Shown here: positions 28,931 through 62,130 of the stretch, in pieces
How the letters are laid out: every line of letters starts with the position of its first letter
How positions within the stretch are numbered: the first letter of the stretch is position 1
Source: Halobium salinum
Lineage (GTDB): Archaea; Halobacteriota; Halobacteria; Halobacteriales; Haloferacaceae
Assembly: GCF_026586625.1 (NCBI RefSeq)
Contig: NZ_JAODIW010000006.1
Coordinates: 1,339,061 to 1,403,060, forward strand
Direction of reading: 5' to 3'
DNA length: 64,000 nucleotides
Made by a program: the position numbers and the translations under genes
The notes under the pieces: generated by a model
Database searches by the model: none
What the model was told of the DNA's origin: nothing
Seen by the model: only the letters and a program-made list of their open reading frames with translations

Positions 28931-29012
28931 GGCTCGGTGATAGGAGGTGGCTGATAAATAACCCCACATGCACGACCGAACGTCGAAGGGCCGGAGCGAC
29001 GAACACACGTGT

Positions 29013-30509
29013 ATGAACGAGACTGCCCCCGACGCCGACACCAGGGCCGACGAGGTGGCTCCCGCCGACGACGCGACCATCGGCGACGACGACGCGACCA
29101 TCGGCGACGCGAAACGGCCCGCCCCGGATGCGGCGGACTCGGACCGCCTCGACCCGCCGTCGGCCCCGCGTCCGCCTCGACCCGACGGGTGGCCCCTCGT
29201 CGGCAACACGTTCCAGTTCCTGCGCGACCCGTACGGCTACTACGAGACGCTCGCCCGCGAGGGGGACGTGGCCGGCTACAGCATCGCCGGCAACGAGTTC
29301 GTCACCCTGCTGCGTCCCGAGTACGTCAAGCGCGTCCTCGAGAACGACGTGGCCGAGTTCCGCAAGCCGGACCTCCTGCGACGCTCCGGCGGGTCGTTCA
29401 TCGAGGAGGGACTGTTCCTGCAGGACGGCGAGGAGTGGCGTCGGAACCGCACGGCGATGCAGCCGACGTTCTACCGCGAGCGCATCGAGGCCTACGGCGA
29501 GTCGATGGCGCGAATCGCCGAGGGGCGCGCCGACTCGTGGCGAGACGGCGAGGTGCTCGACCTGACCGAGGAGTTGTCGGCGTTCACCCTCGACGTGCTG
29601 ACGAAGACGCTGTTCGACGTGGAGATGGACGAACGCGCCGAGGTCATCCACGACGCGACGCTCGCCGTACAGGAGCGCGCCGACGCCTCTTCGTTGACGG
29701 CGTTCCTCCCCAACTGGGTGCCGACGCCCGCGAACCGGCGGTTCGACCGCGCGACGGCCGCGTTCGACGACCTCGTCGGGGAGCTAATCGCCGAACGGCG
29801 CGCCTCGACGAGCGACGAGGCCGGCGACCCGCCGGGCGAGGACCTCCTCTCGCTCCTGCTCGCCGTCTCCTTCGAGGACGGGTCGGGGCTGTCCGACCGG
29901 AAACTCCGGGACCACCTCGTCACGATGCTCTTTGCCGGCCACGAGACCTCCTCGCTGGCGCTGTCGTACGCGATTCTCTTGCTCTCACAACACCCCGAGA
30001 AGGCCGACCGACTGCGCGAGGAGGTCGAGACGGTCGCCGGCGACGGCCGACTCGGCGCCGCCGACGTTCGTCACCTCGACTACACCGACCGGGTGCTGAC
30101 GGAGACGCTGCGGCGCTACCCGCCCGCCGCCGTGCTGTTCCGCGAACCGGTCGAGCCGACGACGGTCGGCGGCTACCGGGTCGCCCCCGGCACCACGCTC
30201 ACGCTCCCGGCGTTTCGCATCCACAACGACCCGCGCTGGTACGACGACCCCGACGCGTTCCGTCCCGAGCGCTGGACCGACGAGATGGAGGCCGACCTCC
30301 CCGAGTACGCGTACTTCCCGTTCGGCGGCGGGCCGCGCCACTGCATCGGGATGCGCTTCGCCACGCTGGAGATGAAACTCGCACTGGCGACGTTCGTCCG
30401 TCGATGGGCGTTCGACCTTCGTTCGGACCCGGACCCCGACTTCGTCGCGGCGGGGACGATGCGGCCCGAGGAGCCAGTTCGGGTCCGGGTTCGGTCGCGG
30501 ACGGAGTGA
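29013..30509 (+). CDS. Cytochrome P450 (module 1)
   Basis: A 498-residue soluble P450. Motifs: I-helix LFAGHETSS (oxygen-activation A-G-x-[DE]-T), K-helix ETLRR (ExxR), PERW, and heme loop FPFGGGPRHCIGMRFA with the Cys ligand. The first 50 residues are an Asp/Ala/Pro-rich tail containing an exact seven-residue repeat (ATIGDDD). The domain proper starts at PPRPDGWPLVGNTFQFLRDP. The ATG at 29013 fits the TATA box better than one at 28968. No ferredoxin or reductase gene is adjacent. Substrate unknown; terpenoids and fatty acids are common for this group. Confidence 0.93.
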   Translation: MNETAPDADTRADEVAPADDATIGDDDATIGDAKRPAPDAADSDRLDPPSAPRPPRPDGWPLVGNTFQFLRDPYGYYETLAREGDVAGYSIAGNEFVTLLRPEYVKRVLENDVAEFRKPDLLRRSGGSFIEEGLFLQDGEEWRRNRTAMQPTFYRERIEAYGESMARIAEGRADSWRDGEVLDLTEELSAFTLDVLTKTLFDVEMDERAEVIHDATLAVQERADASSLTAFLPNWVPTPANRRFDRATAAFDDLVGELIAERRASTSDEAGDPPGEDLLSLLLAVSFEDGSGLSDRKLRDHLVTMLFAGHETSSLALSYAILLLSQHPEKADRLREEVETVAGDGRLGAADVRHLDYTDRVLTETLRRYPPAAVLFREPVEPTTVGGYRVAPGTTLTLPAFRIHNDPRWYDDPDAFRPERWTDEMEADLPEYAYFPFGGGPRHCIGMRFATLEMKLALATFVRRWAFDLRSDPDPDFVAAGTMRPEEPVRVRVRSRTE

Positions 30510-31137: not shown

Positions 31138-31788
31138 CTACCCCGGGAACGCCGCGTCGACGAGCGCCCGCTCACCCTTCCGCAGCAGCGTCGACGCCGC
31201 GCTCTCCGAGCAGTCGAGCGCGTCGGCGACCGCCGCGAGCGACGCCTCGCGCGGGACCTCGTAGTACCCGAGTTCGCGGGCGGTCCGGACGGCCTCGAAC
31301 TGTCGGTTCGTGAGCCGCCCCGCGAGCGAGGTCGCGGGGTGGCGATGGTCGCTCAGGCGGTCGACCTCGACGCCGACCTCGTCGGGGAGGTCGGCGACGA
31401 CCCCGCGGAGGGCGTCGGGGTCGCCGAGGACGGTCAGCCGGACGACGTCGGTGTCCAGATACACGACCGGCGGGACGACGACGAGCCGGCGCTCCTCGAA
31501 CGTCTCCCAGAGGGCCACGTCGGCGGGCGTCGTCTCCATCTCGGCGTAGAGGTAGAACGTGTCGTCGTCGATGGGGGCGAACTCGACCGACTGTACCGGG
31601 TCGAGGTCGGCGACGGCCGCCCTGACGACCGCGAGGTCGCCGGCGACGACGGAGAGAAAGGAGACGGTGCCGTCCGCATGGCCCTGCCACGCGACCATCT
31701 CCTCGCGTTCGACGGCCGCCTCCGCCGACTCGGGGACCGGAAGACGCATCGGCGGCGGGAGCCGGAGCGTCACGTCGAGGGACTTCAC
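31138..31788 (-). CDS. Bat-type HTH transcription regulator (divergent to P450-2)
   Basis: A 216-residue paralogue of the regulator at 28274-28930, starting at GTG 31788 (VKSLDVTLRLPPPMRLPVPE, matching the VKYLHLTLREPP start of its twin). Shared stretches: LVVVPPVVYLD versus LVVVPPVVYAKD and LGYYEVPREASL versus LGYYAVPREATL. The C-terminal HTH is ALDCSESAASTLLRKGERAL. CTTTTTATC on the minus strand at about 31810-31818 is a TATA box about 25 bp upstream. It is divergent from P450-2, 82 bp between starts. Confidence 0.87.
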   Translation of the reverse strand: MKSLDVTLRLPPPMRLPVPESAEAAVEREEMVAWQGHADGTVSFLSVVAGDLAVVRAAVADLDPVQSVEFAPIDDDTFYLYAEMETTPADVALWETFEERRLVVVPPVVYLDTDVVRLTVLGDPDALRGVVADLPDEVGVEVDRLSDHRHPATSLAGRLTNRQFEAVRTARELGYYEVPREASLAAVADALDCSESAASTLLRKGERALVDAAFPG

Positions 31789-31870
31789 GCCCCGAGTCGC
31801 GGCGGGACTGATAAAAAGGTTCAGCCGTTCGCGGCAACGACGAGGGGGGTCCGCCGCCGACTTCGACGTG

Positions 31871-33349
31871 ATGACCGACGCAGACCCACTCGCCGACCGA
31901 CGTTCCCGAGCGCCGACCGACCGGGAGGAGTCACCGGCGCCCGCAGCGGCCGCCATCGATTCGGAGCGCGACGACCCCGAAGTCGCTCCATCGCCGCCGG
32001 AGCACGACGGGCTTCCACTCCTCGGTAGCACCCCCGCGCTGCTCCGGGAGGGGCTCGCGTTCGGCGACCGTCTGCAGGAGCGGGGGGACGTGGTCGCCTA
32101 CGACGCGCTGGGCGAGCGGTTCGTCGCCGTCTTCGACCCCGCGCTCGTCGAGGCGGTGCTCGTCTCCCGGAGCGACGAGTTCCGGAAGGGGGAGTACGAG
32201 ACCGAATTCCTCTCGTTGCTCGCGCCGGAGGGGCTCGCCACCGTCGAGGGCGAGCGCTGGCGCCGCCAGCGTCGGCTGCTCCAGCCTGCGTTCACGCCCG
32301 CGCGACTCGGGACGTTCGCCGAGACGATGGTCGACGACGCGGCGACGATGACCGACGGCTGGGCGGACGGCGAGGTCGTCTCGCTTCGCGACGACCTGTC
32401 GTCGTACACGCTGTCGGTGCTCGCCCGGACGCTCCTCGACGTGGACCTCGACGCCGAGCGCGGCGCGACCGTCCGCGAGGCCGCCGACTCCATCGCCGGG
32501 CTGACGACGAGCGCCTGGTCGTTCGCCCCCGACTGGCTCCCGACCCCGCCGGAGCGCCGCTACCGGCGGGCCATGGCCGACCTCGACGACCTCGTCGGGA
32601 CACTAATCGAGGAGCGCCGCGGGGCGCCCGGCGACGGTAGCGAGCACGACGACCTGCTGACGGCGATGCTCGACGCCGCGTTCCCGGACGGGTCGACGAT
32701 GGACGAGTCGACGGTGCGCGACCAACTGGTCACGTTCCTCTTCGCCGGCCACGAGACCACCGCGACGGCGCTCTCGTACGCCTGCTGGCTGCTCGGCGGC
32801 CACCCGCAGGTCCGCTCCCGACTCGACGAGGAACTGGCGGGCGTGCTCGACGGGCGCGACCCGACGCTCGCGGACCTCCCGGCGCTCGACTACACCGAGG
32901 CCGTCGTGCGGGAGGCGATGCGGCTCTTCCCACCCGTCTACAGCCTCTACCGGCAGCCGAAGACGGACACGACGCTCGGCGGCTACGCGATTCCCGCGGA
33001 CGCGACGCTCCAGCTCGCGACGTATCACGTCCAGCGCGACTCGCGGTGGTGGGACGCCCCCGGCGAGTTCAGACCGGAGCGGTGGCTGAGCGGAGATTTC
33101 GAGAGCGGCAGCGGGGGCGACGGCGGCGTGAGCGACGACGGCGACGCCGACCGACCGGAGTACGCCTACTTCCCGTTCGGCGGCGGTCCCAGACACTGCA
33201 TCGGCATGCGGTTCGCGACGATGGAGACGAAACTCGCGCTCGCGACTATCGCACGACGGGTTCGCTTCGAGCGCGCCGGCGCCGTCGAGCCGGCACCGCG
33301 CCTCGTGCTCGACCCCGGCGAGGTCCGGATGCGGGTCCGGACGCGGTGA
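31871..33349 (+). CDS. Cytochrome P450 (module 2)
   Basis: A 492-residue P450. I-helix LFAGHETTA, K-helix EAMRL (ExxR), FRPERWL, and the heme loop FPFGGGPRHCIGMRFA, identical to that of P450-1. It is clearly paralogous to P450-1 but with a different N-terminal acidic tail and a Gly/Asp-rich insertion before the heme loop (about residues 410-425). The ATG at 31871 is the first in-frame start after the divergent promoter. It probably needs a ferredoxin-type donor from elsewhere. Confidence 0.92.
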   Translation: MTDADPLADRRSRAPTDREESPAPAAAAIDSERDDPEVAPSPPEHDGLPLLGSTPALLREGLAFGDRLQERGDVVAYDALGERFVAVFDPALVEAVLVSRSDEFRKGEYETEFLSLLAPEGLATVEGERWRRQRRLLQPAFTPARLGTFAETMVDDAATMTDGWADGEVVSLRDDLSSYTLSVLARTLLDVDLDAERGATVREAADSIAGLTTSAWSFAPDWLPTPPERRYRRAMADLDDLVGTLIEERRGAPGDGSEHDDLLTAMLDAAFPDGSTMDESTVRDQLVTFLFAGHETTATALSYACWLLGGHPQVRSRLDEELAGVLDGRDPTLADLPALDYTEAVVREAMRLFPPVYSLYRQPKTDTTLGGYAIPADATLQLATYHVQRDSRWWDAPGEFRPERWLSGDFESGSGGDGGVSDDGDADRPEYAYFPFGGGPRHCIGMRFATMETKLALATIARRVRFERAGAVEPAPRLVLDPGEVRMRVRTR

Positions 33350-58885: not shown

Positions 58886-60580
58886 TCACTCGGTGACGAC
58901 GTCGCTGCCGAGCCCGCGGAGCCGCTCGTCGGTCCCGACGAGCACGACCTCGTCGTCGGCGTCGACCTGTACGCCGTCGTCGACGAGCAACGCTCCGTCG
59001 CGCCGGACGCCGACGGCCGCCACTCCCGCCTCCCAGTCGCGGGTCACCTCCCCGAGGGCCCGCCCGGCGAACGAGTCGCCGTCGAGTCGGACGAATCGGA
59101 CCTCGCCGACCGGGTGGAGGTCGGGGTCGCCGTGAATCTCGGCCGCGAGCGTCCGCGCCGTCGTCGACTGCTCCGAGAGGGCGTAGTCCGCACCCGCGTC
59201 GAACGCCTTCCGGACGTTCTCCGCGTCGGCCACCCGGGCGAGTACCTCGGTGTCGTCGTCCATCGCGCGGGCCATGGCGACCGTCAACAGCGTCGTGTCG
59301 TCGTCGTTCACCGCGACGAGAAGCGCCGTCGACTCGTCACTCCCCAGCCCGGCGTCCACCAGCGTCGACCGCTCGGTCGCGTCGCCGACGATGTCCGCCC
59401 CGGCGTCGTCCCGGACGTCGACCGTCGTTACCGCCACCCGGTCGGGGAGCGCGTCCACGGCCGCCCGTCCCGCTTCGCCGAGCCCCACCACGACGACGCG
59501 TTCGGGGACGGCCGGTCGAGTGGTTCCACCGAGCGCGTCGTAGAGGGACTCGAACGCCGACTCGGGGCCGATGACCACCAGCGTCCCGTTCGACGGGAGT
59601 CGCTCGTCGGGGCGCGGAGGGAGGTGGAGGTCGCCGTCCACCCAGGCGGCGACCACGGAGAGGTCGGGGTCGGCGGCGACCGGGGTGTCGCCGACTCTCG
59701 TCCCGTCGAGCGGGCCGCCGCGACGGACGGGCAGTTCGCGAACCACGACGTCGCCGCCGAGTTCGGCCGACTCGTCCGACTGGCCGACGGCGAACGCCGC
59801 CTTCTCGGCCAACCGCTCCCCGACGAGCCGCGGGGGGCACACCACCCGGTCCGCGCCGACCCGCTCGAGGGCCTCGCGTCTGGTCTCGGTCTCGGTCAGA
59901 CAGACCGCTCGGGCGTCGTCGTTCAGCTGGCGGGCGGTTAGCGTGACGCTCGCGTTTCGGTCGTGCGCGTCGGTGACGACGAACGCGGCGTCGCCGACGG
60001 AGGCGCGTTCGAGCGTCGCCGTCTCGGTCGGGTCGCCGTCGATGGCCTGGTAGTCCCGGTTCGAGAGCGCGATGGCCTCCTCCTCGTCGGAGTCGACGAG
60101 GACGTACTCGGCGTCGGACGCCTCCAGTTCGTCGAGGAGGACGTCCTTGCCGCGCCCGTACTCGCAGACGACCACGTGACCGCGCTTGGTGGTCAGGCGC
60201 TCGTCGAGGACGACGGGGGCGCGTTCGAACAGCGGGATGATGAGGATGCGGAGCGTCACGAAGCCGATCACGACGCCGGTGATCTGATACCACGTCATGA
60301 GCAGGTTCATCGGCGCCGTCTCCCACGGTGCGTCCCCGCCGAACCCGGTCGTGGTCATCGTCTGGACGATAATTTGGAGCGAGTGAGGGAACGACCGGGG
60401 CCTCCCCTCGAGGCGGGCCATACCGACCTGATAGATGAAGGTGTACACCAGGAGGAGCGCCACGAGACCGGTCCCGAACTTCAGTACCTTCCGCTGTCGC
60501 TCCGAGAGGTCACCGAGCGACTCGATGGCGCGGAGCCGGTCGACCTGCTGTTCGAGCGGCGGCCGCTTCCGCGAACTCAT
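58886..60580 (-). CDS. Potassium channel with two TrkA/RCK domains
   Basis: A 564-residue protein. An Ion_trans_2 pore: helices at about 33-53 and 97-118, with pore loop TMTTTGFGGDAPW (variant selectivity filter TTGFGGD rather than TxGYGD). The first RCK domain (VVVCEYGRGKDVLLDELEAS) is a TrkA_N. A TrkA_C segment follows (ELPVRRGGPLDGTRVGD), then a second TrkA_N (ERVVVVGLGEAGRAAVDALP) and a second TrkA_C. It gates K+ flow according to nucleotide or ion state, central to haloarchaeal osmotic balance. The ATG at 60580 is chosen because the frame above it is Ser/Arg-rich. Confidence 0.9.
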   Translation of the reverse strand: MSSRKRPPLEQQVDRLRAIESLGDLSERQRKVLKFGTGLVALLLVYTFIYQVGMARLEGRPRSFPHSLQIIVQTMTTTGFGGDAPWETAPMNLLMTWYQITGVVIGFVTLRILIIPLFERAPVVLDERLTTKRGHVVVCEYGRGKDVLLDELEASDAEYVLVDSDEEEAIALSNRDYQAIDGDPTETATLERASVGDAAFVVTDAHDRNASVTLTARQLNDDARAVCLTETETRREALERVGADRVVCPPRLVGERLAEKAAFAVGQSDESAELGGDVVVRELPVRRGGPLDGTRVGDTPVAADPDLSVVAAWVDGDLHLPPRPDERLPSNGTLVVIGPESAFESLYDALGGTTRPAVPERVVVVGLGEAGRAAVDALPDRVAVTTVDVRDDAGADIVGDATERSTLVDAGLGSDESTALLVAVNDDDTTLLTVAMARAMDDDTEVLARVADAENVRKAFDAGADYALSEQSTTARTLAAEIHGDPDLHPVGEVRFVRLDGDSFAGRALGEVTRDWEAGVAAVGVRRDGALLVDDGVQVDADDEVVLVGTDERLRGLGSDVVTE

Positions 60581-60698: not shown

Positions 60699-61751
60699 CT
60701 ACTTGTGTCCCCGACTCGCGAGGTGGTACCCCAGAATCGGCTCCATTCCGGCGACGTAGGCGTCGAGGTCGACCGACTCGACGTCGAACTCGCGGGCCCG
60801 GAGCGCGTCGTAGCGCTCCCACCACTCCGCCAGGAGTCGGGTCTCCGTGCCCGCCTCGTCGATGCGGCCGCGGACGGCGGCCCTGAGCGCGGCCGACCCG
60901 GTGTCAGCTTCCAACGCCGCGAGCTCCTCGTGGGTGACGACGCCACGGTCGAGCGCGTGGGCGAACACGCCGGCGGCCACGTCCCCCTCGTCCAGTTCGC
61001 GCTCCCAGGTGCTGACCCAGTTCCCGATGCGGGCGAGCTTCTGGACCTCCTGGGTGACCGCTCGGAGCGTGCCGAGGTCGTCCGTGTCGAAGCCGGGCGA
61101 GTTCATCAGGTCGATTGCGAGGGTGACGAACATCATCATGTTCTGTGCGCCGTAGCGCATCGACTCCGTCGGGTTGGCGAGCGCCGGCTTCGCGCTCGCC
61201 AACTCCGCGTACTCCATGCTGGTCACCGTCTGTCCGAGGTCGAACCGGAGGACGTCCGCAAACTCCTCGTGTCGAGGCGCGTCCGCGAGCCGGTCGATCA
61301 GAGCGTCCCAGACCGCGGCCGTGAACCGAACGTGCTCGGTGTCGCCGGCGACGGCGTCCGGGTCGACTTGCTCGGCGGCGAACGGGATGCGCTTCGCCGT
61401 CGCGAAGGTGTCGTCGTGGCCCTCGCGTTCGGCGAAGTCGTCGAGCAGCGTGGTGAACAGGACGGCGATGAGTTTGTCCTGCCGGACCGCTCGCTCGCGT
61501 TCGGGCGCGACGCAGGACAGTCGGTACTCGGGGGCGATGGTGTAGTACCACTTCCAGACGAAGGAGTCGCGAATGCCGACCACCTCGTCGTACTCCCGCA
61601 CCAGACCCGCGACGGGGTCAGGGAGGTCGCGTTCGTAGATAGTCGACAGCGAGTCGATCGACGCGTCGGGCCGCCTCCCCTCTTCGGGCGAAGACGGAGG
61701 GGTCGGGTCGCCCGGATTCGGCCCCGCGTTCGTGGCTTCCGTGTCGTTCAC
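60699..61751 (-). CDS. Candidate class I terpene synthase-like protein
   Basis: A 350-residue all-helical soluble protein, the size of a microbial class I terpene cyclase. It carries the complete set of hallmark residues. The aspartate motif is DDFAE (104-108, in FTTLLDDFAERE), matching DDxxE. The pyrophosphate-sensor Arg is R199 (SMRYGAQ), 45 residues before the second metal motif. The NSE-type motif is NWVSTWERE (N244, T248, E252; pattern N-x3-S/T-x3-E). A C-terminal Arg-Tyr pair is R313-Y314. These positions match bacterial and fungal terpene synthases (established pattern), whereas overall sequence does not resemble a prenyl-diphosphate synthase. It would use Mg2+ to ionise a prenyl diphosphate. 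It is monocistronic, with an AT-rich TAATTGTTATG 27-37 bp upstream (61778-61788). Product unknown. Confidence 0.7.
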   Translation of the reverse strand: MNDTEATNAGPNPGDPTPPSSPEEGRRPDASIDSLSTIYERDLPDPVAGLVREYDEVVGIRDSFVWKWYYTIAPEYRLSCVAPERERAVRQDKLIAVLFTTLLDDFAEREGHDDTFATAKRIPFAAEQVDPDAVAGDTEHVRFTAAVWDALIDRLADAPRHEEFADVLRFDLGQTVTSMEYAELASAKPALANPTESMRYGAQNMMMFVTLAIDLMNSPGFDTDDLGTLRAVTQEVQKLARIGNWVSTWERELDEGDVAAGVFAHALDRGVVTHEELAALEADTGSAALRAAVRGRIDEAGTETRLLAEWWERYDALRAREFDVESVDLDAYVAGMEPILGYHLASRGHK

Positions 61752-62045
61752 GGCTGGGGAGCGCGGAGCAGGGGTAATTGTTATGTGTCGACTATCTGAT
61801 GTACGCTCGGAATACCGTTCCGGTAACCACCGTCTGCAGTCGCGATAGGTCCGGTGGTGGGGGCTTCCGGCGTACGTCGTGGCGGCGAGCGGCCGACAGG
61901 CGCAAAAGCCGACGAGCGGCGTGGCTCCGGAGCGTTAGAGCTGATACACACTACGGGCCGAGCAGCCGCTCTTCGAAGCGAGTTCGGTAGGATTGTGCGC
62001 GGGTGATGTCCGTGTAGCGGACGTCACCGCACTGTATGGTGACAG

Positions 62046-62130
62046 TGCGTGGGACCGGATTTGAACCGGCGGACCTCTACAGGACAGCGCCCTCAACGCT
62101 GCGCCGTTGGCCTGGCTTGGCTACCCACGC
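62046..62130 (-). tRNA. tRNA-Leu (GAG)
   Basis: An 85-nt type II tRNA. Acceptor stem GCGTGGG pairs with CCCACGC, discriminator A. The anticodon stem CAGCG/CGCTG encloses loop TTGAGGG, anticodon GAG. A long variable arm (TCCTGTAGAGGTCC) and T-arm GCCGG-TTCAAAT-CCGGT follow. CCA is not encoded. TTAAAATCC at 62171-62179 (minus strand GGATTTTAA) is a likely TATA box about 40 bp upstream. The opposite-strand frame here is a tRNA translation artefact. Confidence 0.96.

Follow-up and report, generated by a model that had tools for sequence, protein, structure and literature searches.

What is known of archaeal isoprenoids concerns mainly linear ether lipids, quinones and carotenoids, and the searchable open-access literature yielded no class I terpene synthase from an archaeon. 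This fits the statement of an earlier sequence-only reading of the DNA analysed here that such cyclases are rarely reported from haloarchaea. Archaeal 'terpene clusters' have been reported from antiSMASH, in passages that describe no characterised class I cyclase. Described class I enzymes have a broken helix G, usually carry an Arg that serves as pyrophosphate sensor 46 residues before the NSE metal-binding motif, and have a conserved Trp six residues before an RY pair (PMC8450962). Departures from this pattern are on record: the sestermobaraene synthase SmTS1 is active although its sensor position is naturally occupied by Gly (PMC8450962), and a clade with deviating motifs in bacteria includes inactive enzymes (PMC10509563). 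The described system closest by sequence profile is Sat1646, a class I pimarane-type diterpene synthase from actinomycetes (PDB 7e4n/7e4o). Further points of comparison are synthases paired with methyltransferases, as in sodorifen biosynthesis (FPP C-methyltransferase and synthase) and in pairs of geranyl diphosphate 2-C-methyltransferase (GPPMT) and synthase, as well as the bacterioopsin activator Bat, which controls bacteriorhodopsin and retinal genes in Halobacterium (PMC3184054).

Here, we present a gene from a 64,000-nucleotide stretch of the Halobium salinum genome (hereafter the window) which, judging from its homologues and predicted structure, probably encodes a catalytically competent, divergent class I terpene synthase. 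The reading frame, at the interval given in the sequence-only reading, is uninterrupted and lies on the minus strand, and all four motifs named there (D104-D105-F-A-E108, R199, N244-x3-T248-x3-E252 and R313-Y314) are present at the claimed residues of the translation. The features discussed below are:

60699..61751, minus strand: CDS of a divergent class I terpene synthase-like protein, 350 aa, with a GTG start at 61751 and a stop codon ending at 60699 (assigned from homologues and structure)
61428..61442, minus strand: Asp-rich metal-binding motif D104-D105-F-A-E108, at the C-terminal end of helix 83-108, conserved in 82-86 of 86 homologues
60996..61022, minus strand: NSE-type metal-binding motif N244-WVS-T248-WER-E252, including the invariant R251 and aligning with the NSE motif of Sat1646
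61155..61157, minus strand: R199, proposed pyrophosphate sensor, not conserved
60810..60815, minus strand: R313-Y314, taken as the RY pair in the sequence-only reading, neither conserved nor in register
58886..60580, minus strand: TrkA_N/TrkA_C protein of potassium-channel type, 564 aa, the next gene downstream after a gap of 119 bp
62045-62130, minus strand: tRNA-Leu (gag), upstream of the synthase, about 300 bp from its start
28968-30509 and 31559-33349, plus strand: two cytochrome P450 ORFs (PF00067, E 4.8e-87 and 6e-76)

The NSE motif of Sat1646 (NDLASYERD in 7e4n) and the GD that follows it align residue by residue with the window family, but identity in the fold alignment is only about 18%, and no partner of the class II cyclase type was detected in the archaeal genome. 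Like SmTS1, which lacks the Arg sensor and the conserved downstream Asn, the archaeal family has no fixed Arg sensor and no conserved Asn at that place (8-9 residues after the NSE motif the family alignment shows S/G instead), whereas the Asp-rich motif, deviant in SmTS1, is kept here as DDxxE/D together with the NSE motif. The likeness to the methyltransferase-synthase pairs consists of methyltransferases at two loci, L010 and L002, but such pairing occurs in very few archaeal loci and the L002 protein lies far below the GPPMT cut-off. As in the Bat system, regulators of the Bat type (PAS/GAF/HTH_10) adjoin an isoprenoid enzyme, although a different one.

Distribution of the family

Relatives of the window protein were sought by sequence pattern in 84,980 species genomes; the scan returned ten, at 28-43% identity, of which eight are haloarchaeal and two come from metagenome-assembled genomes (MAGs) labelled Patescibacteria. 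In a whole-genome search, 120 of the 391 Halobacteria genomes, belonging to 39 of 86 genera, had a match, and methanogen members were added by a profile search across the phylum. All six plasmid copies are annotated as 'hypothetical protein'. Conservation was assessed on a set of 86 non-redundant homologues. That haloarchaea carry such a 'hypothetical' gene, often next to one for a sensor or regulator, suggests that archaea have a terpenoid chemistry yet to be studied. If this is true, the family, present in about 31% of the sampled Halobacteria genomes, would bring cyclic terpenoids into the chemistry of much of a domain, offer salt-stable cyclases and constitute a natural experiment on dispensable diphosphate-binding residues.

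Fold, metal motifs and diphosphate-binding residues

From the 86-sequence alignment, AlphaFold predicted an all-helical protein with a pLDDT of 91.7 and a pTM of 0.89; the single sequence gave a pLDDT of 37.5. In the model, the Asp-rich DDxxE stands at the end of helix 83-108, in the helix D position of the class I DDxx(x)D/E motif, the NSE motif lies near the end of helix 223-254, and the preceding helix is broken at residue 206 into segments 194-205 and 207-216, matching the helix G break of class I synthases. The first 50 Foldseek hits in the PDB were all class I isoprenoid enzymes and mostly terpene cyclases, headed by aristolochene synthase (E 3e-4, probability 1.00) and then Sat1646 (7e4o), with plant, bacterial and fungal synthases also among the matches; FPP synthases and the related protein Rv2173 were the sole non-cyclases among these 50. 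The model thus has the alpha-helical class I terpenoid synthase fold, at moderate TM-scores of 0.38-0.63 and high rmsd, and the structural check proposed in the sequence-only reading turned out, as regards the fold, in favour of that reading.

The profile searches proposed alongside it divided between the relatives and the window protein itself. Searched with the family profile, the PDB gave Sat1646 as the best sequence-profile match (E 0.095), aligned across the NSE motif. Weak matches to Pfam PF19086 (Terpene_syn_C_2) were found in 67 of the 86 members, with a best E of 2.3e-8, and matches to PF03936 in 15. The curated PF19086 cut-off of 23.7 bits was passed by a few relatives (e.g. L008 with 29.3 and L054 with 23.9 bits), and most individually scanned members fell below it. 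The window protein alone, searched against Pfam, NCBIfam and PDB sequences, gave nothing relevant and no terpene-synthase match, PF19086 included; a PF19086 search of its own genome returned no match, but neither did its controls. The trans-isoprenyl diphosphate synthase family PF00348 does not appear in the list of 25 families matched by the 86 members, and the second metal motif is of the NSE type, not a second DDxxD. As independent sequence and structure searches agree, we assign the protein to the class I terpene synthases, at the edge of current sequence models.

The claim that the protein holds all four class I motifs stands for the window sequence by inspection, but across the family only two of the four are shared features. 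In composition-preserving shuffles of the window protein, DDxx[DE] and N-x3-[ST]-x3-E at a spacing of 110-170 recurred in 0.4%, the same two motifs plus an Arg 45/46 before the N in 0.05%, and all four features together in none of 20,000. Since the motif pattern was chosen after the sequence had been seen, conservation is the better test. Among the 86 homologues, D105 is invariant, D104 is D in 82 and N in four, and position 108 is E in 71 and D in 15. The metal ligands of the NSE triad are kept in 85-86 of the 86 (N244 and E252 in all, T248 in 85), and the equally invariant R251 corresponds to the K/R of the consensus NDxxSxx[KR]E, given for class I enzymes as ND(L,I,V)xSxx(K,R)E; the family form is N-W-[VLI]-x-T-W-x-R-E, with W in place of the second-position D. 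R61, W66, W68, D214, R230, R241, W245, W249 and D257 are likewise invariant.

The other two elements fared differently. Position 199, 45 residues upstream of the NSE motif, is Arg in just 29 homologues and otherwise T (18), H (12) or Q (9), and the sensor proposed there is not borne out. Position 313, 69 residues after N244, is Arg in 32 and E in 26, and because W310 (84 of 86) precedes R313 by three residues, where the published spacing is six, R313-Y314 is not the RY pair that it had been taken for. C-terminal residues 341-342 read RY in only some members, and no conserved RY register was found at the C-terminus among the 86 homologues. The family hence has neither a fixed Arg sensor about 46 residues upstream of the NSE motif nor a fixed C-terminal RY pair with a Trp six residues upstream, both usual in class I enzymes but not indispensable. 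Lack of conservation of DDxxE, R199 and the NSE residues had been named as grounds for abandoning the assignment; it applies to R199, while DDxxE/D and NSE are essentially invariant. The original identification was therefore right in kind, by fold and metal-binding residues, and overstated in detail, by sensor and RY pair. Judged by its alignment, the family is a class I clade in which neither the pyrophosphate sensor nor the RY pair is fixed; by analogy with SmTS1, this is compatible with activity and need not abolish it. If its members are active in this state, they would show that the class I fold can hold diphosphate in a further way.

Gene neighbourhoods

Around the window synthase no biosynthetic neighbours and no sensor or regulator gene were found, and the surrounding genes are unrelated. 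The downstream TrkA-domain gene is not evidently related to it in function, and upstream lie a divergent gene for a small membrane protein and the tRNA-Leu. The two P450 ORFs, which the sequence-only reading had tentatively tied to the synthase, are genuine and close together, but they lie more than 27 kb from it, and on this distance we reject a link within the window. An archaeal terpenoid pathway, as suggested there, is plausible from the cluster of a relative in Natrinema ejinorense (L002), not from the window locus.

Besides the synthase, that cluster comprises a UbiA prenyltransferase, two FAD-dependent oxygenase-type genes (the FAD family scan was made on a relative), an O-methyltransferase and a SnoaL-type protein, and further a P450, a class III aminotransferase and a second methyltransferase. 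The best NCBIfam match of the latter is GPPMT, at 60-64 bits against a cut-off of 400, and by this score it is not a GPPMT equivalog. Read from gene content, the cluster is the best evidence that some members may feed specialised terpenoid biosynthesis. Only three loci have a P450 no more than two genes from the synthase. In L010, a methyltransferase gene precedes the synthase with an overlap of 16 nt.

Neighbouring genes were called with a codon model, which found 61 of the 62 annotated genes in the regions used to train it, and their domains were assigned by iterated HMMs. Histidine kinase, PAS, Bat/HTH_10 or HalOD1 genes made up 39 of 188 immediate neighbours, compared to 19 of 576 genes three to six positions away (odds ratio 7.7, p 9e-13), and at least one sensory or regulator gene lay within two genes of the synthase in 47 of 95 loci. 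The enrichment holds within haloarchaea alone (30 of 162 vs 18 of 519) and after thinning to below 60%, 50% and 45% synthase identity, with within-locus permutation p values of 0.0008, 0.016 and 0.012, respectively. This adjacency is a new observation. Layouts vary, including divergent Bat with HalOD1, co-directional Bat with HalOD1 downstream, and PAS kinases; in L010, a 7TM-type kinase gene follows four bp downstream of the synthase. The sensory neighbours are not one inherited block, as their presence or absence changes at least 12 times on a FastTree tree. Bat-type regulators form a large family in haloarchaea, and regulation of the synthase by Bat is therefore something that we infer from the arrangement. 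One could go further and envisage that haloarchaea, methanogens and Patescibacteria MAGs carry a module for terpenoid signalling or sensory response, in which a class I synthase is combined with diverse sensor kinases or Bat/HalOD1 and the terpenoid is either the sensed signal or the product of the response; we consider this speculative and rather unlikely. The recurring neighbours make a role in signalling or in a light/redox response directly testable in genetically tractable haloarchaea.

A metallo-beta-lactamase-fold-like gene occupies position -1 or -2 in 18 loci (e.g. L153), usually divergently (near 18 vs far 1), and may reflect the shared synteny of one clade.

Proposed reaction, alternatives and divergent copies

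In the reaction that we propose, D104, D105 and E108 on one helix and N244, T248 and E252 on another would bind a trinuclear Mg2+ cluster, which would grip the diphosphate of an isoprenyl diphosphate. The substrate would most likely be GGPP, the main archaeal C20 precursor, or possibly FPP; an acyclic diphosphate appears likelier because the genome encodes two polyprenyl diphosphate synthases as a substrate source and no class II cyclase was detected in it. The invariant R251, probably with R61, R230 and R241, may replace the helix G Arg and the RY pair in diphosphate recognition. Ionisation would give an allylic carbocation, to be cyclised, rearranged or quenched inside a non-polar cavity, and the product would be a specialised metabolite, in many relatives presumably under local sensory or transcriptional control. 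In Halobellus limi, a neighbour annotated as 'prenyltransferase/squalene oxidase repeat' was considered as a class II partner and rejected, as it has no DxDD.

Other readings of the same fold and motifs have to be weighed against this one. The FPP synthases among the Foldseek matches, together with the missing sensor and RY pair, which suggest altered diphosphate handling, would suit a class I-fold enzyme that uses the same Mg2+ chemistry without cyclising, such as a lyase or hydrolase of prenyl diphosphates, or a prenyltransferase with a small molecule as acceptor. We regard such an enzyme as improbable, given that the second motif is the NSE triad, a terpene-synthase motif (PMC8450962), rather than DDxxD, and that Pfam and profile matches point to terpene synthases. 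Even less probable is that catalysis was lost and that the protein serves as a ligand-binding or regulatory partner, with a terpene-synthase fold, of the neighbouring sensor kinases or Bat regulators. Its support comes from the strong enrichment of sensory genes and from synthase and kinase genes that share one direction, with 4 bp between them in L010 and side by side in methanogens, but metal ligands kept in essentially all members would be unexpected without catalysis, and neither the window copy nor about half of the loci have a sensory gene nearby. Chance coincidence of motifs in an unrelated helical haloarchaeal protein might have been suspected from a single sequence lacking any terpene-synthase match in Pfam or the PDB; family-wide invariance, the Pfam matches of the relatives and the structure search have already refuted it. 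Members of the family are thus, in our reading as class I terpene synthases, very probably enzymatic.

Some copies deviate from the general picture. Those of one methanogen-side family (L137, L138, L139 and L140; family f15) are truncated, stop-interrupted or motif-deviant, which suggests decay or assembly errors. On the two Patescibacteria-labelled contigs (L009:6747-8584 and L010:4393-7849), the synthase is directly followed by a 7TM-type histidine kinase gene, of which in L009 just a similar N-terminal part is visible before the contig ends; these copies represent either transfer between domains or mis-binning. The Methanosarcina-type homologues (L141, L142, L143, L144, L146 and L147) are very divergent and sit on a very long branch; they keep DDxxD and N-x3-T-x3-E, and each has a PAS histidine kinase gene directly upstream of the synthase.
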